Assembly: GCF_000384655.1 (NCBI RefSeq)
Contig: NZ_ARQI01000121.1
Coordinates: 1 to 64,000, forward strand
Length of the DNA stretch: 64,000 nucleotides
Direction of reading: 5' to 3'
From: Brachyspira innocens ATCC 29796
GTDB taxonomy: Bacteria; Spirochaetota; Brachyspiria; Brachyspirales; Brachyspiraceae
Under the pieces are notes generated by a model that saw only the letters and a list, made by a program, of their open reading frames with translations, ran no database searches and was not told the DNA's origin. How positions within the stretch are numbered: the stretch's first letter is position 1; each line of letters begins with the position of its first letter. Both the position numbers and the translations under genes were made by a program. Positions 44,809-52,974 of the stretch are shown in pieces.

Positions 44809-44814
44809 ATGACG

Positions 44815-45672
44815 ATGATCATCAATAACAACATTAGTGCTATAAATGCACAACGTACTTTAAAATTCAGAAACGTAGATCTTTCTAAAGACATGGCTGC
44901 TCTTTCTTCTGGAATGAGAATCAACAGAGCTGGTGATGATGCTTCTGGACTTGCTGTATCTGAAAAAATGCGTACTCAAATCCGCGGTTTACGTCAGGCT
45001 GAAAGAAACACTCAAGACGGTATATCTTTCATCCAAACTACTGAAGGTTACCTTCAAGAAAGCCAAGACATTTTACAAAGAATACGTGAATTGTCTGTAC
45101 AATCTGCTAACGGTATTTATACTGATGCTGACAGAATGCTTATTCAAGTTGAAGTTTCTCAATTAGTTGATGAAGTTAACCGTATTGCTAGCCAAGCTCA
45201 ATTCAATACTCTTAACATGTTAACTGGAAGATTTGCTAACCCTAACGAAGGCGGAGCTCCTGTTGCTTCTATGTGGTTTCATATGGGGGCAAACATGGAC
45301 GAAAGAAGAAGAGTTTATATAGGAACTATGACTGCTGCTGCTTTAGGTTTACAAACTGCTGAAGGTACTGGTATATCTATTTCTTCTATCGACAAAGCTA
45401 ACAGTGCTATAGGTATAGTTGATGAGGCTTTAATGAAAGTTTCTAAACAAAGATCTAATTTAGGTGCTTATCAAAACAGATTAGAGCTTACTGCTCAAGG
45501 CTTAATGATAGCTTATGAAAACACTGCAGCTTCTGAAAGCAGAATAAGAGATACTGATATGGCTGAAACTTCTGTTAAATTCGCTAAAGACCAAATATTA
45601 AGTCAGGCTAATTTAGCTATGTTGGCTCAAGCTAATACTATGAACCAAGGTGCTTTACGTTTGATTCAATAA
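44815..45672 (+). CDS. flaB: Flagellar core filament protein (flagellin) FlaB
   Basis: About 285 residues from [18 protein letters not shown]. Start at 44815 rather than 44809, because GGAGG (44804-44808) then has a 6-base spacer. N-terminal D0/D1 coiled coil includes [21 protein letters not shown]-terminal D1/D0 has the matching helices ending [16 protein letters not shown]. The variable D2/D3 domain is almost absent (short [17 protein letters not shown] middle), as in periplasmic spirochaete flagellins, which are built of FlaB cores with an FlaA sheath. C-ending codons are more frequent than in the neighbours, fitting high expression. Which FlaB paralogue this is cannot be fixed here. Confidence 0.95.
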
Positions 45673-46106: not shown

Positions 46107-47948
46107 TTAATTTTCTATATACCAAGAAGGTTCATGTTTTTCTACAAGTGAATCTGAAAAAGCATATTTCATATTAATCTCATTTGACAATTTCCAAGAC
46201 TCTAAATCCTGATTAAAATTTGAGCAGTTATAAAATGCAAACGATATATTTTTAATATTAGATAGATTCCATTTATCTAAAGGCTGATTAAAGTTTGAAG
46301 CACTATGAAACATTCCATTTATAGATTCAATATTACTCATATCCCAATCATTTAAAGGCTGATTAAAACTCTTAGCATCTTTAAACATAGCATCGGCATA
46401 TTTTACTTTGCTTACATTCCATTTAGAAATATCCTGATTAAAAGAATACGCACTTTTAAACATAAAGCTCATTATTTCTACATTAGATGTATTCCATCTG
46501 CTTAAATCACCATCAAAACTAACACAATCTGAAAACATAAAACTCATATACTTGACATTAGAAACGTCCCAATTATTAAGAGGCTGATTGAATCTAGTAC
46601 ACCCTGAAAACATATATTCCATATTAATAACATTAGATACATTCCAATTCTCTATATTATGATTAAAATATATAGCTCCTTTAAATATGTTATGCATATC
46701 TTTTACGTTTGAAGTGTCCCAAGTTTCAATACCGTCAAATTTTTTAAGTTTTGAGTTCTGAAACAATCCAGACATGTCAGTTATTAAGCTAGTATCTATT
46801 TTATTAAATTTTATTTTTTCTTTTATTAATTTTAATAATTCTATTTTATCTTTAGGTTTATATTTTTCATTTTCTTTTAATTTGATATTATTAGCCTTTA
46901 ATTTTTTATATTCTTTTATAATATCTTCTTTATTATCAATGAGTTCCTTTAATTCATCATAATAAGTATTTTCAAGTTTTTTAATAAAATCTTTAAGTTT
47001 ATTATATTTTAGAACTTCTTTATACACTTCTTTTATATCGCAGTTTTCAAGCATTAATAAAAGTTTTTTTCTATCACTTCCTTTGGAAAGAAAATAAATA
47101 TTTAATATAGACTTCACATTTTTAAAAGAAGAAGCACCCGAAAAAAACTCCCTAATAAAACAAGCTTCATTAATAATCCAATTTTCTATAGAATGATTAA
47201 AACTCTCAGCACCACTAAACATATATGACATACTAATTGCATTAAAAACATTCCAGTTTCCAATATCCTGATTAAAACTTTTAGCATTAAAAAACATATA
47301 GTTCATATATAAAACATTAGAAGTATCCCATTTATCAAGCGGCTGATTAAAGTTATAAGCATTCTCAAACATACCAAGCATTTTTTCTGTTTTGCTGACA
47401 TTCCAATTATTAAGAGCCTGATTAAAATTATAAGCCTTTGAAAACATACTTTGCATATTTTCTACATTAGAGGTATCCCAATTATTTAAATCCTGATTGA
47501 AATTTACAGCTTTATAAAACATACATCTCATACTGATAACTTTAGAAGTATCCCATTTATCTAAAGGCTGATTAAAATTTTTGGCTTCAGAAAACATAAA
47601 TTCCATATTTGTTACATTAGATACATTCCAATCATTTAATGGCTGATTAAAGTTTTTAGCACTTGCAAATATCCCGAACATATTAGTAACTTTTGAAACA
47701 TTCCAATTATTTATATTTGAATTAAAGTTTACAGCCCCCATAAACATATCTGACATATCTGTAACATTAGATGTATTCCAAATTTCAATTCCATCAAAAT
47801 TTTCTCTCTTACTATTTTCAAATAATCTGCTCATATCAGTAATTAAACTTGTATCAATACTTCCAAGATTAATGCTTTCATCCTTAACTAATTTTTTTAA
47901 TTCTTCTTTATTTTTTGGTTTAAATCGTTTTTCCATTTTCTTATCCAT
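46107..47948 (-). CDS. DUF285 repeat protein, two solenoid modules
   Basis: 613 residues, about 17 repeats of roughly 25 residues of the type FNQPLDNWNVSNVKDMSSMF (DUF285, bacterial surface 26-residue repeat). Two modules, each opened by a cap (KPKNKEELKKLVKDESINLG then DTSLITDMS; second cap near residue 365) and the protein closing with PSWYIEN. A charged helical linker (about 275-365, ending in ELKELIDNKEDIIKEYKKL) joins them. No signal peptide or lipobox is seen, although the family is usually called surface-exposed. The ribosome site is weak; the upstream bases belong to a direct repeat at 47948-48048. Confidence 0.88.
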   Translation of the reverse strand: MDKKMEKRFKPKNKEELKKLVKDESINLGSIDTSLITDMSRLFENSKRENFDGIEIWNTSNVTDMSDMFMGAVNFNSNINNWNVSKVTNMFGIFASAKNFNQPLNDWNVSNVTNMEFMFSEAKNFNQPLDKWDTSKVISMRCMFYKAVNFNQDLNNWDTSNVENMQSMFSKAYNFNQALNNWNVSKTEKMLGMFENAYNFNQPLDKWDTSNVLYMNYMFFNAKSFNQDIGNWNVFNAISMSYMFSGAESFNHSIENWIINEACFIREFFSGASSFKNVKSILNIYFLSKGSDRKKLLLMLENCDIKEVYKEVLKYNKLKDFIKKLENTYYDELKELIDNKEDIIKEYKKLKANNIKLKENEKYKPKDKIELLKLIKEKIKFNKIDTSLITDMSGLFQNSKLKKFDGIETWDTSNVKDMHNIFKGAIYFNHNIENWNVSNVINMEYMFSGCTRFNQPLNNWDVSNVKYMSFMFSDCVSFDGDLSRWNTSNVEIMSFMFKSAYSFNQDISKWNVSKVKYADAMFKDAKSFNQPLNDWDMSNIESINGMFHSASNFNQPLDKWNLSNIKNISFAFYNCSNFNQDLESWKLSNEINMKYAFSDSLVEKHEPSWYIEN

Positions 47949-48056: not shown

Positions 48057-50393
48057 TTATTGTACCAAATTTTCAAGCATCAATATAGAACCAAACATAA
48101 ATCTATCAACTAAATCTTTATTATTTTCTGATATATTTAATATTTTTAATACTATTTCTATCATATCTCCAAAGTCAGCATTATCTCTGCTAATACCATT
48201 TGTTGATATATCTAATACTAAACCGCTTACTTTCTCTTCAAATTTATATCCATCTATTGTGTAATAATCTTCATAATATTCATTAAAAGGATATTTATTA
48301 ACAAAATTTTTTAACTTAGATAATTTATATTCACCATTATATGAATAAAATTCTTTTTCTAAATCATCAATAACTCTTAATTGATTAATAGGCTGAACAA
48401 TCTCATAATCTGATAATTGTTTTTTCCATTTTTCTATAATATCATTATCCATTTCTTTTACATATGCTAAACTAATATAATTATTTTCATTGATTTTTAC
48501 TTCATTATCATTATAATCAGTAAAACTTCCATCAGTTAAATATCTGAATGTTGTTATAAAATTATTTTCATCATATAAGTTCCAAATTAATTTAACAGCA
48601 TACACATTAAAAAAATAATTATCTATATAAACAGATTTCCAAAAATTATAAGAATATTTTCTTCCATTCATTAAAAGATATATCATTTTATATCTTTGAC
48701 TTTTTACAATATTTTTTATTTCTTTTTTAATAAAAGTTATTTCTGATTTTAACTCTTTAGAAAAAGTTTTAGGTGCTGTTTTTAATTCTTTATTATTATT
48801 CATAATATGAAGCTCCATATTATCATCAATAAAAAGTTTATATTCTTTATCTTCAGCATATACTATTCTCTCGCCATTCTTATCAAGATTAAAATCAGGA
48901 ACTAATAAATCATCTAATTCATATCTTTCAACTTTCATTCTATTAGCTATAGTTTCAAGTGCTAATTCGGCTGCATTTTTTATGCTTTCTATTTTTGATT
49001 TTAAAGATGTATCGCAAAGTAATTTTAATGCATATTTATTTTTATTTAAAGCTAAAATATAAACATAGTATGAACGAGGATAAAACTCTTTTTTTAAACT
49101 TTTTACATAATCTTCTACTATTTTACCATCTCCATATATACCGCAAATAATTCTCGAAGCTAATTTACTTCTGTCACTTAAAAATATTTCATAAGATACA
49201 TTTCTAAAACTTTCTATATCAAGCAAATTAATAATATCATCAATAATTTCTAATCTTACAACATTATCTTTCACTTTTAAATAACTTCCGTAAATAAATC
49301 TAATCATCTTTAAACTTATTTTTGTTTTTCTCTCTTTAGTAAAGATAGTATATTTATCATCTATAAATTTTATACTTTTATCAAATGACTTATCATAATT
49401 ATTATTAACATATTCTTCTGCCTCTTCAATATTTTGAAAAATTATTTTATTAGAATAATCTTCTATTTCATTTTTAAGTTCATTTTCAAAATCTTTTTCT
49501 AATCTTGAAACAAAAGAAATAATTTTTTTATTAATTGAATTTTTTAAAGTCTTATGCCACAATTTAACATCCACTTTTTGTAAATTTTCATCTTCATAAT
49601 ATTTATCATAAAATAAATAGCATAATAAATTAATAGGTTCTTTTTTAGAATATATTTCATCAAGCATTTCTTCTGGTAATATATAATCAATATCTTCTTT
49701 TATATTATCAAAATTCCATTTATAAGGAATTATTTTAAAACTATTAGCACGATTAAATATAAAACTAATACTTTTTACCTTGCTTATATCCCAATTATTT
49801 AAATCCTGATTAAAAGATGAAGCATTTGCAAACATAAAGCTCATATATTTTACGCTTTTTATATTCCAATTACTTATATTTTGATTAAAGCTTGTACATC
49901 CATTAAACATAGAATTCATATTTGTTACTTTTGAAACATTCCAATTACTAATGTCTTGATTAAATAAACTGCATTCTTTAAACATAGAGCTCATACTCTC
50001 AACATTAGAAGTGTCCCAGTTATTTAGAGGCTGATTAAATTTAACACAGCCGTCAAAAATTCTTGTCATATCTTTTACTTTATTAATATTCCAGCTATTT
50101 AAAGGCTGATTAAAGTTAATACATTTAGAGAATAAACAAGACATATCTGTAACTTTAGAAGTATCCCAACTATTTAGAGGCTGATTAAACTCTCTGCATT
50201 CTTTAAACATACTGCTCATATTTTTAACATTAGACACGTCCCAAGTTTCTATACCTGAGAAATCTTCTCTTTCACTGCTTCTAAATAATTCGCTCATATC
50301 AGTAATTAAACCAGTATCAATACTGCCAAGATTTATATTTTCATCTTCTACTAATTTTTTTAATTCTTCTTTTGTTTGAGGTTTGTATTTCAT
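48057..50393 (-). CDS. DUF285 repeat module fused to a DUF4132-type domain
   Basis: 778 residues. Residues about 1-215 are the cap (KPQTKEELKKLVEDENINLG) and seven DUF285 repeats. A helical stretch follows, and from about 320 the sequence reads as a DUF4132 protein: HEAT-like helices, ERYELDDLLVPDFNLDKNGE, a LLMNGRKYSYNFWKSVYIDN segment, KLIWNLYDENNFITTFRYLT and KKQLSDYEIVQPINQL. DUF4132 domains, often with WGR domains, are of unknown function. No signal peptide, so a cytoplasmic protein is expected. AAGGAAA precedes ATG. This is the middle gene of three DUF285 genes. Confidence 0.82.
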   Translation of the reverse strand: MKYKPQTKEELKKLVEDENINLGSIDTGLITDMSELFRSSEREDFSGIETWDVSNVKNMSSMFKECREFNQPLNSWDTSKVTDMSCLFSKCINFNQPLNSWNINKVKDMTRIFDGCVKFNQPLNNWDTSNVESMSSMFKECSLFNQDISNWNVSKVTNMNSMFNGCTSFNQNISNWNIKSVKYMSFMFANASSFNQDLNNWDISKVKSISFIFNRANSFKIIPYKWNFDNIKEDIDYILPEEMLDEIYSKKEPINLLCYLFYDKYYEDENLQKVDVKLWHKTLKNSINKKIISFVSRLEKDFENELKNEIEDYSNKIIFQNIEEAEEYVNNNYDKSFDKSIKFIDDKYTIFTKERKTKISLKMIRFIYGSYLKVKDNVVRLEIIDDIINLLDIESFRNVSYEIFLSDRSKLASRIICGIYGDGKIVEDYVKSLKKEFYPRSYYVYILALNKNKYALKLLCDTSLKSKIESIKNAAELALETIANRMKVERYELDDLLVPDFNLDKNGERIVYAEDKEYKLFIDDNMELHIMNNNKELKTAPKTFSKELKSEITFIKKEIKNIVKSQRYKMIYLLMNGRKYSYNFWKSVYIDNYFFNVYAVKLIWNLYDENNFITTFRYLTDGSFTDYNDNEVKINENNYISLAYVKEMDNDIIEKWKKQLSDYEIVQPINQLRVIDDLEKEFYSYNGEYKLSKLKNFVNKYPFNEYYEDYYTIDGYKFEEKVSGLVLDISTNGISRDNADFGDMIEIVLKILNISENNKDLVDRFMFGSILMLENLVQ

Positions 50394-50648
50394 TGTTATG
50401 TTTCCTTAACATTTTTTATAATTCTATATTCTTTTATATATTTTTCAATTTTAAAACTATATAACGAATAAATTTTGTATAAAGTTTTTAATACAATAAC
50501 AAAGATAGATTATTGTACATCATTTCAATTATATCATTTGTTTTTTTTAAGCTTTGGCAAAAAAAGTTGATATAATATTTAATTAGTTCATTTTATATAT
50601 ATAATTTTAATAAAGTTAAAAAATTATTATATTAAAACTTAATAAAAA

Positions 50649-52658
50649 TTAATCTTTATACCAAGAAGGAGTATTATTTTTCATTGCTGAGTTATCAAAC
50701 ATATCTCTCATACGATTAGGCTCTGCTTTGGATACATTCCAAGATTCTAAATTCTGATTAAAACTTTCAGCTTCATAAAATACAGAGTTCATATATTCTA
50801 CATTGGAAACGTCCCAATTATCTAAAGGCTGATTAAATGATGAAGCATAACGAAACATTGTACTAATACTTATAACATTAGAAACATTCCAATTATTAAG
50901 AGGCTGATTAAAACTTCTAGCATTATCAAACATCATTGACATATCTTTAACATTACTTACATTCCAATTATCTAAAGGCTGATTGAAACTAGAAAATTTA
51001 AACATAGCTTTCATATTAATAACATTAGATACATTCCACTTGTCTAAAGCACTATTAAAATTAACAGCTCCTTGAAACATGCTGCCCATATTTTCTACAT
51101 TATATACGTCCCAATCATTAATATTTTGATTAAAGCTTTCAGCATAATAAAACATTGATGACATATCTTTTACATTAGAAACATTCCATTTGTCTAAAGG
51201 CTGATTAAAACTTTCACAATTAGCAAACATAGCTCTCATATCAGAAACTTTAGATACATTCCAATCATTAAGAGGATTATCAAATTTTTTACATTTTTTA
51301 AACATAGAACTTATATTCTCAACTTTTGAAACGTCCCAGCTTTCAATATTATGATTAAAAGCTAATGCTCCTTCAAACATACTTTCCATATTTACTACAT
51401 TAGATACATTCCAAGTTTCTATACCGTCAAACTTTTTTAATTTAGAATCTTTAAAAAGATTGCTCATATCTGTTATTAAGCTAGTATCTATTTTATCAAG
51501 TTTTGTTTTATCTGCTATTAGTTTTATCAATTCATTTTTATTTTTTGGCTTATGCATTTTAGTTTGTTTACTATATTTTTTATCTTTTTTGGTTTCTGAT
51601 TTCTTTTCTGATTTTTCTAATTCTTTATACTCTTTTATAATATCTTCTTTACTGTCAATAAGCTCTTTTAATTCTTCATAATGAATATTTTCTATTTTTT
51701 TTAAAACTTCAGATACTGCTTTTTTATTGTATTTTAATCCTATTTTATAAACTTCTTTTATATCAAATTTATTTGTAATCTCTTCAATATTTTTTGTAGC
51801 AGATTTTGAGCTTTGAAAAGAATATATTTTTAAAACTAAATCTAATGAAACATTATTAAAAATTCTATCAAATTCTTTAACTTTTTTAAAATTCCAATTT
51901 TTAATATTATCAGGATTAAAAGATGAAGCATTAAAAAAAGCTTGATTCATATATTCTATTTTTTCTGTTTTCCAACTGTTTAAATCCTGATTAAATGAAG
52001 AGGCATTATAAAACATATTTACTATACTTTTTAAATTAGAAGTATTCCAATTATCTAAAGGCTGATTAAAATTAAAAGCTCTTTCAAACATATTATCCAT
52101 AAATTCTACATTGAAAATATCCCAGCTATTTAAAGGCTGATTAAACTTTGAAGCTCCAAAAAACATACCATTCATACAGTCAACTTTAGAAGTATCCCAA
52201 TTATCCAAAGGTTCATTAAACATTATACAGCCGTAAAACATTTCTCTCATACTTGTTACATTAGAAACGTCCCAGCTACTTATATTTTGATTAAAACTTT
52301 CAGCATTCTTAAACATCTCCATCATATACTGAACATTAGAAGTATCCCATTTATCTAAAGGCTGATTAAATGTTTTAGCACCGCAAAACATAGCAGACAT
52401 AACCGTAACATTAGATACATTCCAATCATTTATATTATGATTAAAATTAACTGCATTTTTAAACATACCGCTCATACTTGTTACATTAGAAATGTCCCAA
52501 GTTTCTATACCTGAAAAATCTTCTCTTATATTATTAAAAAATAAAGTACTCATATCAGTTATTAAACTCGTATCAATACTTCCAAGATTAATGCTTTCAT
52601 CCTGAACTAATTTTTTTAATTCTTCTTTAGTTTTTGGCTTAAATTGTTTTTCTGACAT
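50649..52658 (-). CDS. DUF285 repeat protein, two solenoid modules (largest repeat array)
   Basis: 669 residues from the ATG at 52658 (MSEKQFKPKTKEELKKLVQD), chosen because GGAG lies 9 bases upstream; an in-frame ATG 8 codons earlier lacks such a site. It has about 18 repeats in two modules, the second cap being MHKPKNKNELIKLIADKTKL then DTSLITDMS near residue 390, and a closing PSWYKD. The linker has the same ELKELIDSKEDIIKEYKEL motif as the 613-residue protein, followed by a Lys-rich hinge. No signal peptide. First gene of the three on the minus strand. Confidence 0.88.
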   Translation of the reverse strand: MSEKQFKPKTKEELKKLVQDESINLGSIDTSLITDMSTLFFNNIREDFSGIETWDISNVTSMSGMFKNAVNFNHNINDWNVSNVTVMSAMFCGAKTFNQPLDKWDTSNVQYMMEMFKNAESFNQNISSWDVSNVTSMREMFYGCIMFNEPLDNWDTSKVDCMNGMFFGASKFNQPLNSWDIFNVEFMDNMFERAFNFNQPLDNWNTSNLKSIVNMFYNASSFNQDLNSWKTEKIEYMNQAFFNASSFNPDNIKNWNFKKVKEFDRIFNNVSLDLVLKIYSFQSSKSATKNIEEITNKFDIKEVYKIGLKYNKKAVSEVLKKIENIHYEELKELIDSKEDIIKEYKELEKSEKKSETKKDKKYSKQTKMHKPKNKNELIKLIADKTKLDKIDTSLITDMSNLFKDSKLKKFDGIETWNVSNVVNMESMFEGALAFNHNIESWDVSKVENISSMFKKCKKFDNPLNDWNVSKVSDMRAMFANCESFNQPLDKWNVSNVKDMSSMFYYAESFNQNINDWDVYNVENMGSMFQGAVNFNSALDKWNVSNVINMKAMFKFSSFNQPLDNWNVSNVKDMSMMFDNARSFNQPLNNWNVSNVISISTMFRYASSFNQPLDNWDVSNVEYMNSVFYEAESFNQNLESWNVSKAEPNRMRDMFDNSAMKNNTPSWYKD

Positions 52659-52974
52659 AATAATATCTCCACTTAAAATCAATTTAAATATTTATTAATA
52701 TGAAAAATAAAATTTTTAATAAAAAAATCTTGCTCCTATAAAAAACAGTAGAATTATACACTATAAAAAAAGAAATGTAAATATATACATTATTCTTTAT
52801 ATTTGATTATTCTAAAATTATTTATATAGTGTTTATTAAATTTATAATCTTTATGTATGTAAAATATATTGTCAGAGATGCATATATAGTGAGCATTAAA
52901 GCTAAAATAATATTGAAAAAAATATAAGTTGTATTTATACTAGTTTAATAAATATAATAAATGAGGGATTTTTT

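Follow-up and report, generated by a model that had tools for sequence, protein, structure and literature searches.

A DUF285 solenoid joined to a short DUF4132 module in Brachyspira innocens, and candidate MoxR, DUF5682 and VWA partners of the module

The window (the whole analyzed stretch of Brachyspira innocens ATCC 29796 DNA, 64,000 nucleotides long) encodes on its minus strand a 778-aa protein whose open reading frame (ORF) starts with an ATG at position 50393. A solenoid protein is encoded on either side of it (sisters 1 and 2). The features of the locus are as follows:

46107..47948, minus strand: sister 1, solenoid-linker-solenoid protein of 613 aa (ORF list, N-cap and linker HMMs)
46932..47129, minus strand: linker of sister 1, residues 274 to 339 (linker HMM)
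48057..50393, minus strand: fusion CDS, 778 aa, DUF285 solenoid, helical linker and DUF4132 module (ORF list and Pfam)
48060..48359, minus strand: C-terminal alpha/beta domain, residues 679 to 778, weakly YugN/KA1-like (Z 8.4, 93 aligned residues)
48378..48791, minus strand: Pfam DUF4132 core, residues 535 to 672, with the FRYxxDGS and W..QL.DYE..QP..Q motifs (Pfam, alignment)
48879..49439, minus strand: helical HEAT/ARM-like portion of the DUF4132 module, residues 319 to 505 (predicted models, structure comparison)
49440..49673, minus strand: helical linker, residues 241 to 318, common to both sister proteins (linker HMM, profile-profile comparison)
49674..50252, minus strand: DUF285/PARCEL repeats, LRR-like solenoid, residues 48 to 240 (Pfam, TIGR02167, VIA)
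50091..50168, minus strand: extra repeat unit, codons about 76 to 101, not in the orthologues of genomes G005, G006 and G009 (ortholog comparison)
50253..50393, minus strand: N-terminal cap, residues 1 to 47 (sequence, our own N-cap HMM, helix 8-16 in the AlphaFold model)
50402..50407, minus strand: AAGGAA, Shine-Dalgarno-like, about 10 nt 5' of the ATG (read from the sequence)
50649..52682, minus strand: sister 2, solenoid-linker-solenoid protein of 677 aa counted from a TTG; the ATG at 52658 is the likelier start (ORF list, HMMs)
51654..51848, minus strand: linker of sister 2, residues 279 to 343 (linker HMM)

The original prediction, that this ORF joins seven DUF285 repeats to a DUF4132-type domain, is borne out. 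Within the one 778-aa ORF, Pfam finds DUF285 (PF03382; E 1.5e-68, 228.5 bits against a cut-off of 25) and, in residues 535 to 672 of the C-terminal region, DUF4132 (PF13569; E 1.8e-21, 77.3 bits against a gathering cut-off of 27). NCBIfam detects PARCEL repeats (TIGR02167) in the solenoid, and the repeat tryptophans are separated by seven 25-residue intervals. The DUF4132 match spans profile positions 2 to 140 of 179; the short DUF4132 forms of Brachyspira stop at about position 141 to 144 and the long forms reach 170 to 177, and Pfam does not require a full-length profile match for membership in the family. Both motif segments that had been quoted for DUF4132 are present inside the 460-residue module (residues 319 to 778). 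The homology extends past the Pfam core over the whole of this module, which is homologous from one end to the other to a stand-alone DUF4132 protein of 465 aa in the same genome. We read the module as a shortened member of the DUF4132 family. Among the residues that are invariant in the long forms, the fusion keeps W604, FRY616-618, D621, W656, Q659, Y663, QP667-668, Q671 and R764, and FRY616-618, Asp621, Trp656, Gln667-Pro668, Gln671 and Arg764 are invariant in 13/13 fusion-type rows compared. In contrast with long DUF4132, position 644 has Tyr in place of His in this protein and Ser in most fusion modules, and Tyr replaces the Trp of GRKW. By eye, no signal peptide or lipobox is present in the N terminus of the fusion, MKYKPQTKEELKKLV, which opens the N-cap directly, or in the N termini of the own-genome paralogues.

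The AlphaFold model of the whole fusion has a mean pLDDT of 89.7, and that of the module alone 91.3. The closest fold to the modelled solenoid is TpLRR of T. pallidum (6mlx; VIA Z 14.5, 196 residues aligned, rmsd 3.9), and many further LRR proteins rank after it in the same comparison. The solenoid is thus predicted to be a leucine-rich-repeat-like fold. The resemblance of the last 100 residues to YugN/KA1-type domains is weak and possibly reflects a common arrangement, and we attach no functional claim to it. Foldseek comparison of either model (whole fusion or module alone) with the PDB gave no significant match, with the same result for the viral library, and a PDB sequence search with the module gave no match.

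Variability at each repeat position was determined from 120 repeat units of 14 own-genome proteins. W1, F13, F19 and N20 of the repeat are nearly fixed, and positions 7, 8, 10, 11, 14, 15, 17 and 18 are hypervariable. These variable positions lie on the repeat surface, a pattern that would fit a binding surface carried by a fixed framework. Most differences between the fusion and its orthologues in G005, G006 and G009 fall in codons 26 to 150. In these comparisons dS is about 0.23 to 0.25 in the solenoid and 0.055 to 0.073 in the module, a solenoid/module ratio of 3.2 to 4.6, bearing in mind that repeat misalignment can inflate solenoid dS. In two other pairs with differing repeat number the ratio is about 2.5 to 2.9, and for most of the rest it does not exceed about 1.5. 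The dN/dS of the module (about 0.2 to 0.28) indicates purifying selection. At this locus, then, the solenoid appears to vary and the module does not, and the likeliest reading is exchange or gain of repeats, to which misalignment may add. Among the loci compared, no recent donor of the variable solenoid block was better than the orthologues themselves.

The B. innocens genome (3.28 Mb) has 16 DUF4132 genes. About 11 are DUF285 fusions in one ORF, with 1 split by a frameshift; the remainder are four genes of 900 to 1145 aa without another Pfam domain and the 465-aa stand-alone gene. Fusions were also read in 14 more genomes of the genus, with split genes in 2 of these, and large Brachyspira genomes carry about 10 to 11 fusion paralogues each. 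Three genomes of the genus are without DUF285, and 2 of the 3 retain stand-alone or long DUF4132 (loci L075 and L170). In a tree of 78 modules, all 40 fusion-type modules form one clade (support 100/100), and the stand-alone clade branches between the fusions and the long forms together with the Ruminococcus, Lachnospiraceae and Bacteroides outgroups. Because all 40 fusion-type modules fall in this one clade, the fusions have a single origin, in which a short DUF4132 module acquired an N-terminal solenoid-linker unit once. Among the Spirochaetota sampled (392 genomes, 34 with DUF4132), DUF285-DUF4132 fusions were found in Brachyspira only, and the solenoid cap and linker are absent from the nine loci read in spirochaetes outside the genus. 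Beyond these 392 genomes, the best 78 loci of one scan make up the entire reach of the fusion search into other phyla. Other spirochaetes encode DUF5724-DUF4132-DUF7737 proteins of 1650 to 1860 aa (L161, L164 and L165, in G146, G364 and G327), and another genus of the same family encodes a 441-aa protein with DUF4132-DUF7737 alone (L162).

Frameshifts or small indels interrupt several copies of the fusion (L023:14800-14960, L149:2020-2230, L084:1680-1880, L060 and L073). Slippage-driven phase variation was considered and set aside: two split copies share a break point, at the end of the solenoid and within or beside A-runs, the others break elsewhere, and assembly error is possible. Flagellin-like genes adjoin two fusion arrays (44809-45672 in the window and L023:5623-6426), and the one on contig C102 looks internally shortened; with only these two unlinked cases, a flagellin neighborhood was rejected as a feature of the arrays. 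In G017 (L065:2523-3084), an ORF cut by the contig end joins ankyrin repeats (Ank_4, 8e-6) to a DUF285 solenoid directly downstream of a window-type fusion. At another locus (C83, L028:8614-10576), an AbiLi-like ATPase gene and, after it, a gene of 208 aa that by eye resembles RloB lie about 1.8 kb from the fusion gene. A phage or viral origin of the module was also rejected, since viral contigs gave no relative of it and the listed phage-record matches cover the solenoid alone. Plasmid records gave only matches of about 22 to 23% to distant DUF4132, several of them in chromosome-size records.

It had also been suggested that the solenoid takes the place of a WGR domain, and this is not supported. 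WGR has no match in the B. innocens genome at E<=1 and none in the fusion protein, and the nearest DUF4132 kin have a long helical N terminus or no N-terminal partner. At the thresholds used, WGR was likewise unseen in 24 other DUF4132 proteins (16 long relatives, six from other spirochaetes and two from E. coli). On these results displacement of WGR by the solenoid was rejected, as they give no sign of it. WGR together with DUF4132 is on record in LIC_12901 of Leptospira interrogans (LRR, WGR and DUF4132; 1616 aa), the sole DUF4132-listed protein in the LRR table of that study (PMC11674859). LIC_12901 is a like fusion, a spirochaete protein with an LRR-type solenoid and DUF4132. By the description in that paper, however, it has WGR and six LRRs; the Brachyspira proteins lack WGR, are built from DUF285 repeats and a short module, and number about 11 in one genome.

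The helical linker was noted to resemble the linkers of the two sisters, and the two prove to be homologous (profile-profile probability 96.7%, E 4.3e-10). A linker HMM built from 11 own-genome fusions matches both sisters (4.4e-8 and 2e-5; best unrelated protein, 0.31) and also matches a solenoid-linker protein at 3.9e-29. Neither the fusion nor the sister linker profile shows any alignment with the stretch that precedes the module in long DUF4132 proteins, and in the profile comparison the linker is missing from DUF4132 proteins without a solenoid. Inheritance of the linker from the helical region of long DUF4132 was rejected on this lack of similarity. Since the linkers align with each other but not with long DUF4132, the linker belongs with the solenoid.

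The further suggestion that the sisters derive from a fusion, a second solenoid having replaced DUF4132, finds backing in the linker homology, but the replacement step is not required. Solenoid-linker proteins of 486 to 502 aa that have neither a second solenoid nor DUF4132 occur in six genomes (G016, G002, G020, G014, G025 and G009). Their orthologues in G022, in G008 and at another G014 locus extend into a second solenoid, so that the second solenoid is gained or lost between orthologues. In G016 the stop codon of the solenoid-linker gene lies a few bases before the start of a downstream solenoid gene, and joining of neighboring genes would account for the sisters without DUF4132. The linker tree unites the sister linkers in a single clade opposite all fusion linkers (97/85), and nesting within the fusions is therefore not demanded; their position beside C126-type fusions is not significant (83/58), and grouping of the sisters with window-type fusions is not rejected (p-AU 0.36). 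A stand-alone DUF285 gene lies closely downstream of the fusion in C126, G002, G020 and L084 (about 20 bp in the C126 type, beside which the sister linkers fall), which makes the replacement route possible, though not needed. With the linker absent from solenoid-free DUF4132 proteins as well, we consider replacement an improbable origin of the sisters.

Gene order in relatives points to partners for DUF4132. In E. coli the order is DUF4132-DUF4132-AAA_5 (YehL-type MoxR)-DUF5682-VWA_CoxE-SWIM, and we take these DUF4132 genes to be those of the yehH/yehI-molR region. With E. coli YehL and DUF5682 as queries, MoxR and DUF5682 homologues were found directly downstream of DUF4132 at the loci of the nearest outgroup, Ruminococcus and Bacteroides; several of these loci also have VWA. 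The core of the E. coli DUF4132 proteins is homologous to that of Brachyspira, where the MoxR, DUF5682 and VWA families exist too, but the E. coli proteins are about 1200 aa long, have no solenoid and are operon encoded, whereas in Brachyspira the genes are dispersed and DUF4132 is multiplied. Compared with its 16 DUF4132 genes, B. innocens has one each of YehL-like MoxR (43% identity over 390 aa; found in 24/26 genomes of the genus), DUF5682 (E 9.7e-83) and clear YehP-like VWA (VWA_CoxE; 36% over 369 aa, E 1e-87), with all three identities confirmed by Pfam. These three genes are on different contigs and unlinked, and none adjoins the DUF4132 genes read. The MoxR gene is at C122:70917-72011, the VWA gene at L191:577-1710 and the DUF5682 gene on C81. 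Within a few kilobases of the YehL-like MoxR gene lie genes that by eye resemble a type I CRISPR-Cas operon (L180:11156-19168, on C122). Among 366 spirochaete genomes outside the genus, DUF4132 occurs in 9, strong DUF5682 in 7 and both in 5 (Fisher 5e-8, uncorrected for relatedness). MoxR ATPases have been described as chaperone-like, with VWA proteins as their usual cofactors (PMC3893208), and in conflict systems MoxR-vWA pairs have variable third components (PMC7159879). Based on gene clustering in relatives, the own-genome partners, co-occurrence and this literature, we infer that DUF4132 may be a subunit of a YehL-type machine, and that Brachyspira would have multiplied this subunit and given most copies a variable LRR-like head. 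The ternary systems (VMAP, iSTAND) likewise combine a MoxR-vWA pair, a third component and variable parts; the likeness is functional only, and YehL is unnamed in the main text of PMC7159879.

As our preferred reading, possible rather than probable, we propose that the fusions are cytosolic, interchangeable recognition subunits that share one MoxR-VWA machine. The variable LRR-like solenoid would bind a putative ligand that is probably a protein; the constant DUF4132 module would hand this ligand to the genome's single MoxR-VWA machine, or switch the machine. The binding role of the solenoid, the contact with MoxR-VWA and the outcome are the parts that we infer. Counting against the proposal, solenoid dS is raised here and in two further pairs, whereas most of the pairs tested show no such rise, and none of the partner genes of Brachyspira adjoins a DUF4132 gene that was read. 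The fusions have also lost residues fixed in the long forms (the His at 644 and the GRKW Trp), and partner binding may therefore have been lost as well. If so, the solenoid would tether a DUF4132 module that has no MoxR-VWA role and some other cytosolic task (scaffolding or protein-protein binding), and the expansion would be relaxed duplication of a repeat-prone gene. The alteration of these residues in all fusions, the split copies and the unlinked partner genes are consistent with this alternative, but the core motifs kept in every fusion-type row compared and the purifying selection on the module are not what it would lead one to expect, and we regard it as somewhat unlikely.

A role in anti-phage defense, in which the solenoid would recognize phage proteins and DUF4132 would signal cell arrest via MoxR-VWA, seems quite improbable. 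MoxR-VWA ternary conflict systems with variable effectors have been described (PMC7159879), paralogue number and repeat content vary, and three own-genome fusion loci are near defense-like genes: a type I methylase (C52), a DUF262/HEC-06-like gene (C96) and an AbiLi-like ATPase (C83). Most fusions nevertheless lie amid housekeeping genes, none of the fusion, sister and long DUF4132 proteins that were tested matches a PADLOC family (best E 0.27), and viral contigs yielded no relative of the module. More doubtful still is the idea, in line with the usual description of DUF285/BspA-like proteins, that the fusions are displayed on the cell surface or secreted and make contact with the host. DUF285/PARCEL/BspA-like proteins have the same 25-residue repeat as the fusion and are frequently membrane targeted (PMC2996958), and BspA antigens are among the Brachyspira outer-membrane candidates (PMC3532143). 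However, those examples are mostly described as surface proteins, lipoproteins or ORFs annotated without function, whereas the Brachyspira repeat is N-terminal and fused to DUF4132, in proteins that lack a signal peptide or lipobox by eye, and DUF4132 kin are encoded alongside cytosolic AAA+ proteins.

A fuller form of our proposal, which we think unlikely as a whole, is a hub-and-spoke arrangement of one MoxR-VWA-DUF5682 AAA+ machine and about a dozen cytosolic LRR-DUF4132 receptors whose repeat surfaces would diversify by gain and exchange of repeats. If true, Brachyspira would have a bacterial counterpart to LRR receptor repertoires. BspA/PARCEL repeats appear to serve here as N-terminal heads of proteins that by eye have no signal, not as surface proteins. 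DUF4132 is widespread, and its occurrence in these fusions suggests a module that can carry different recognition heads. The gene links point to a YehL-type MoxR, DUF5682 and VWA as its likely partners, and with these partners named, the function of DUF4132 and of the partners becomes testable.
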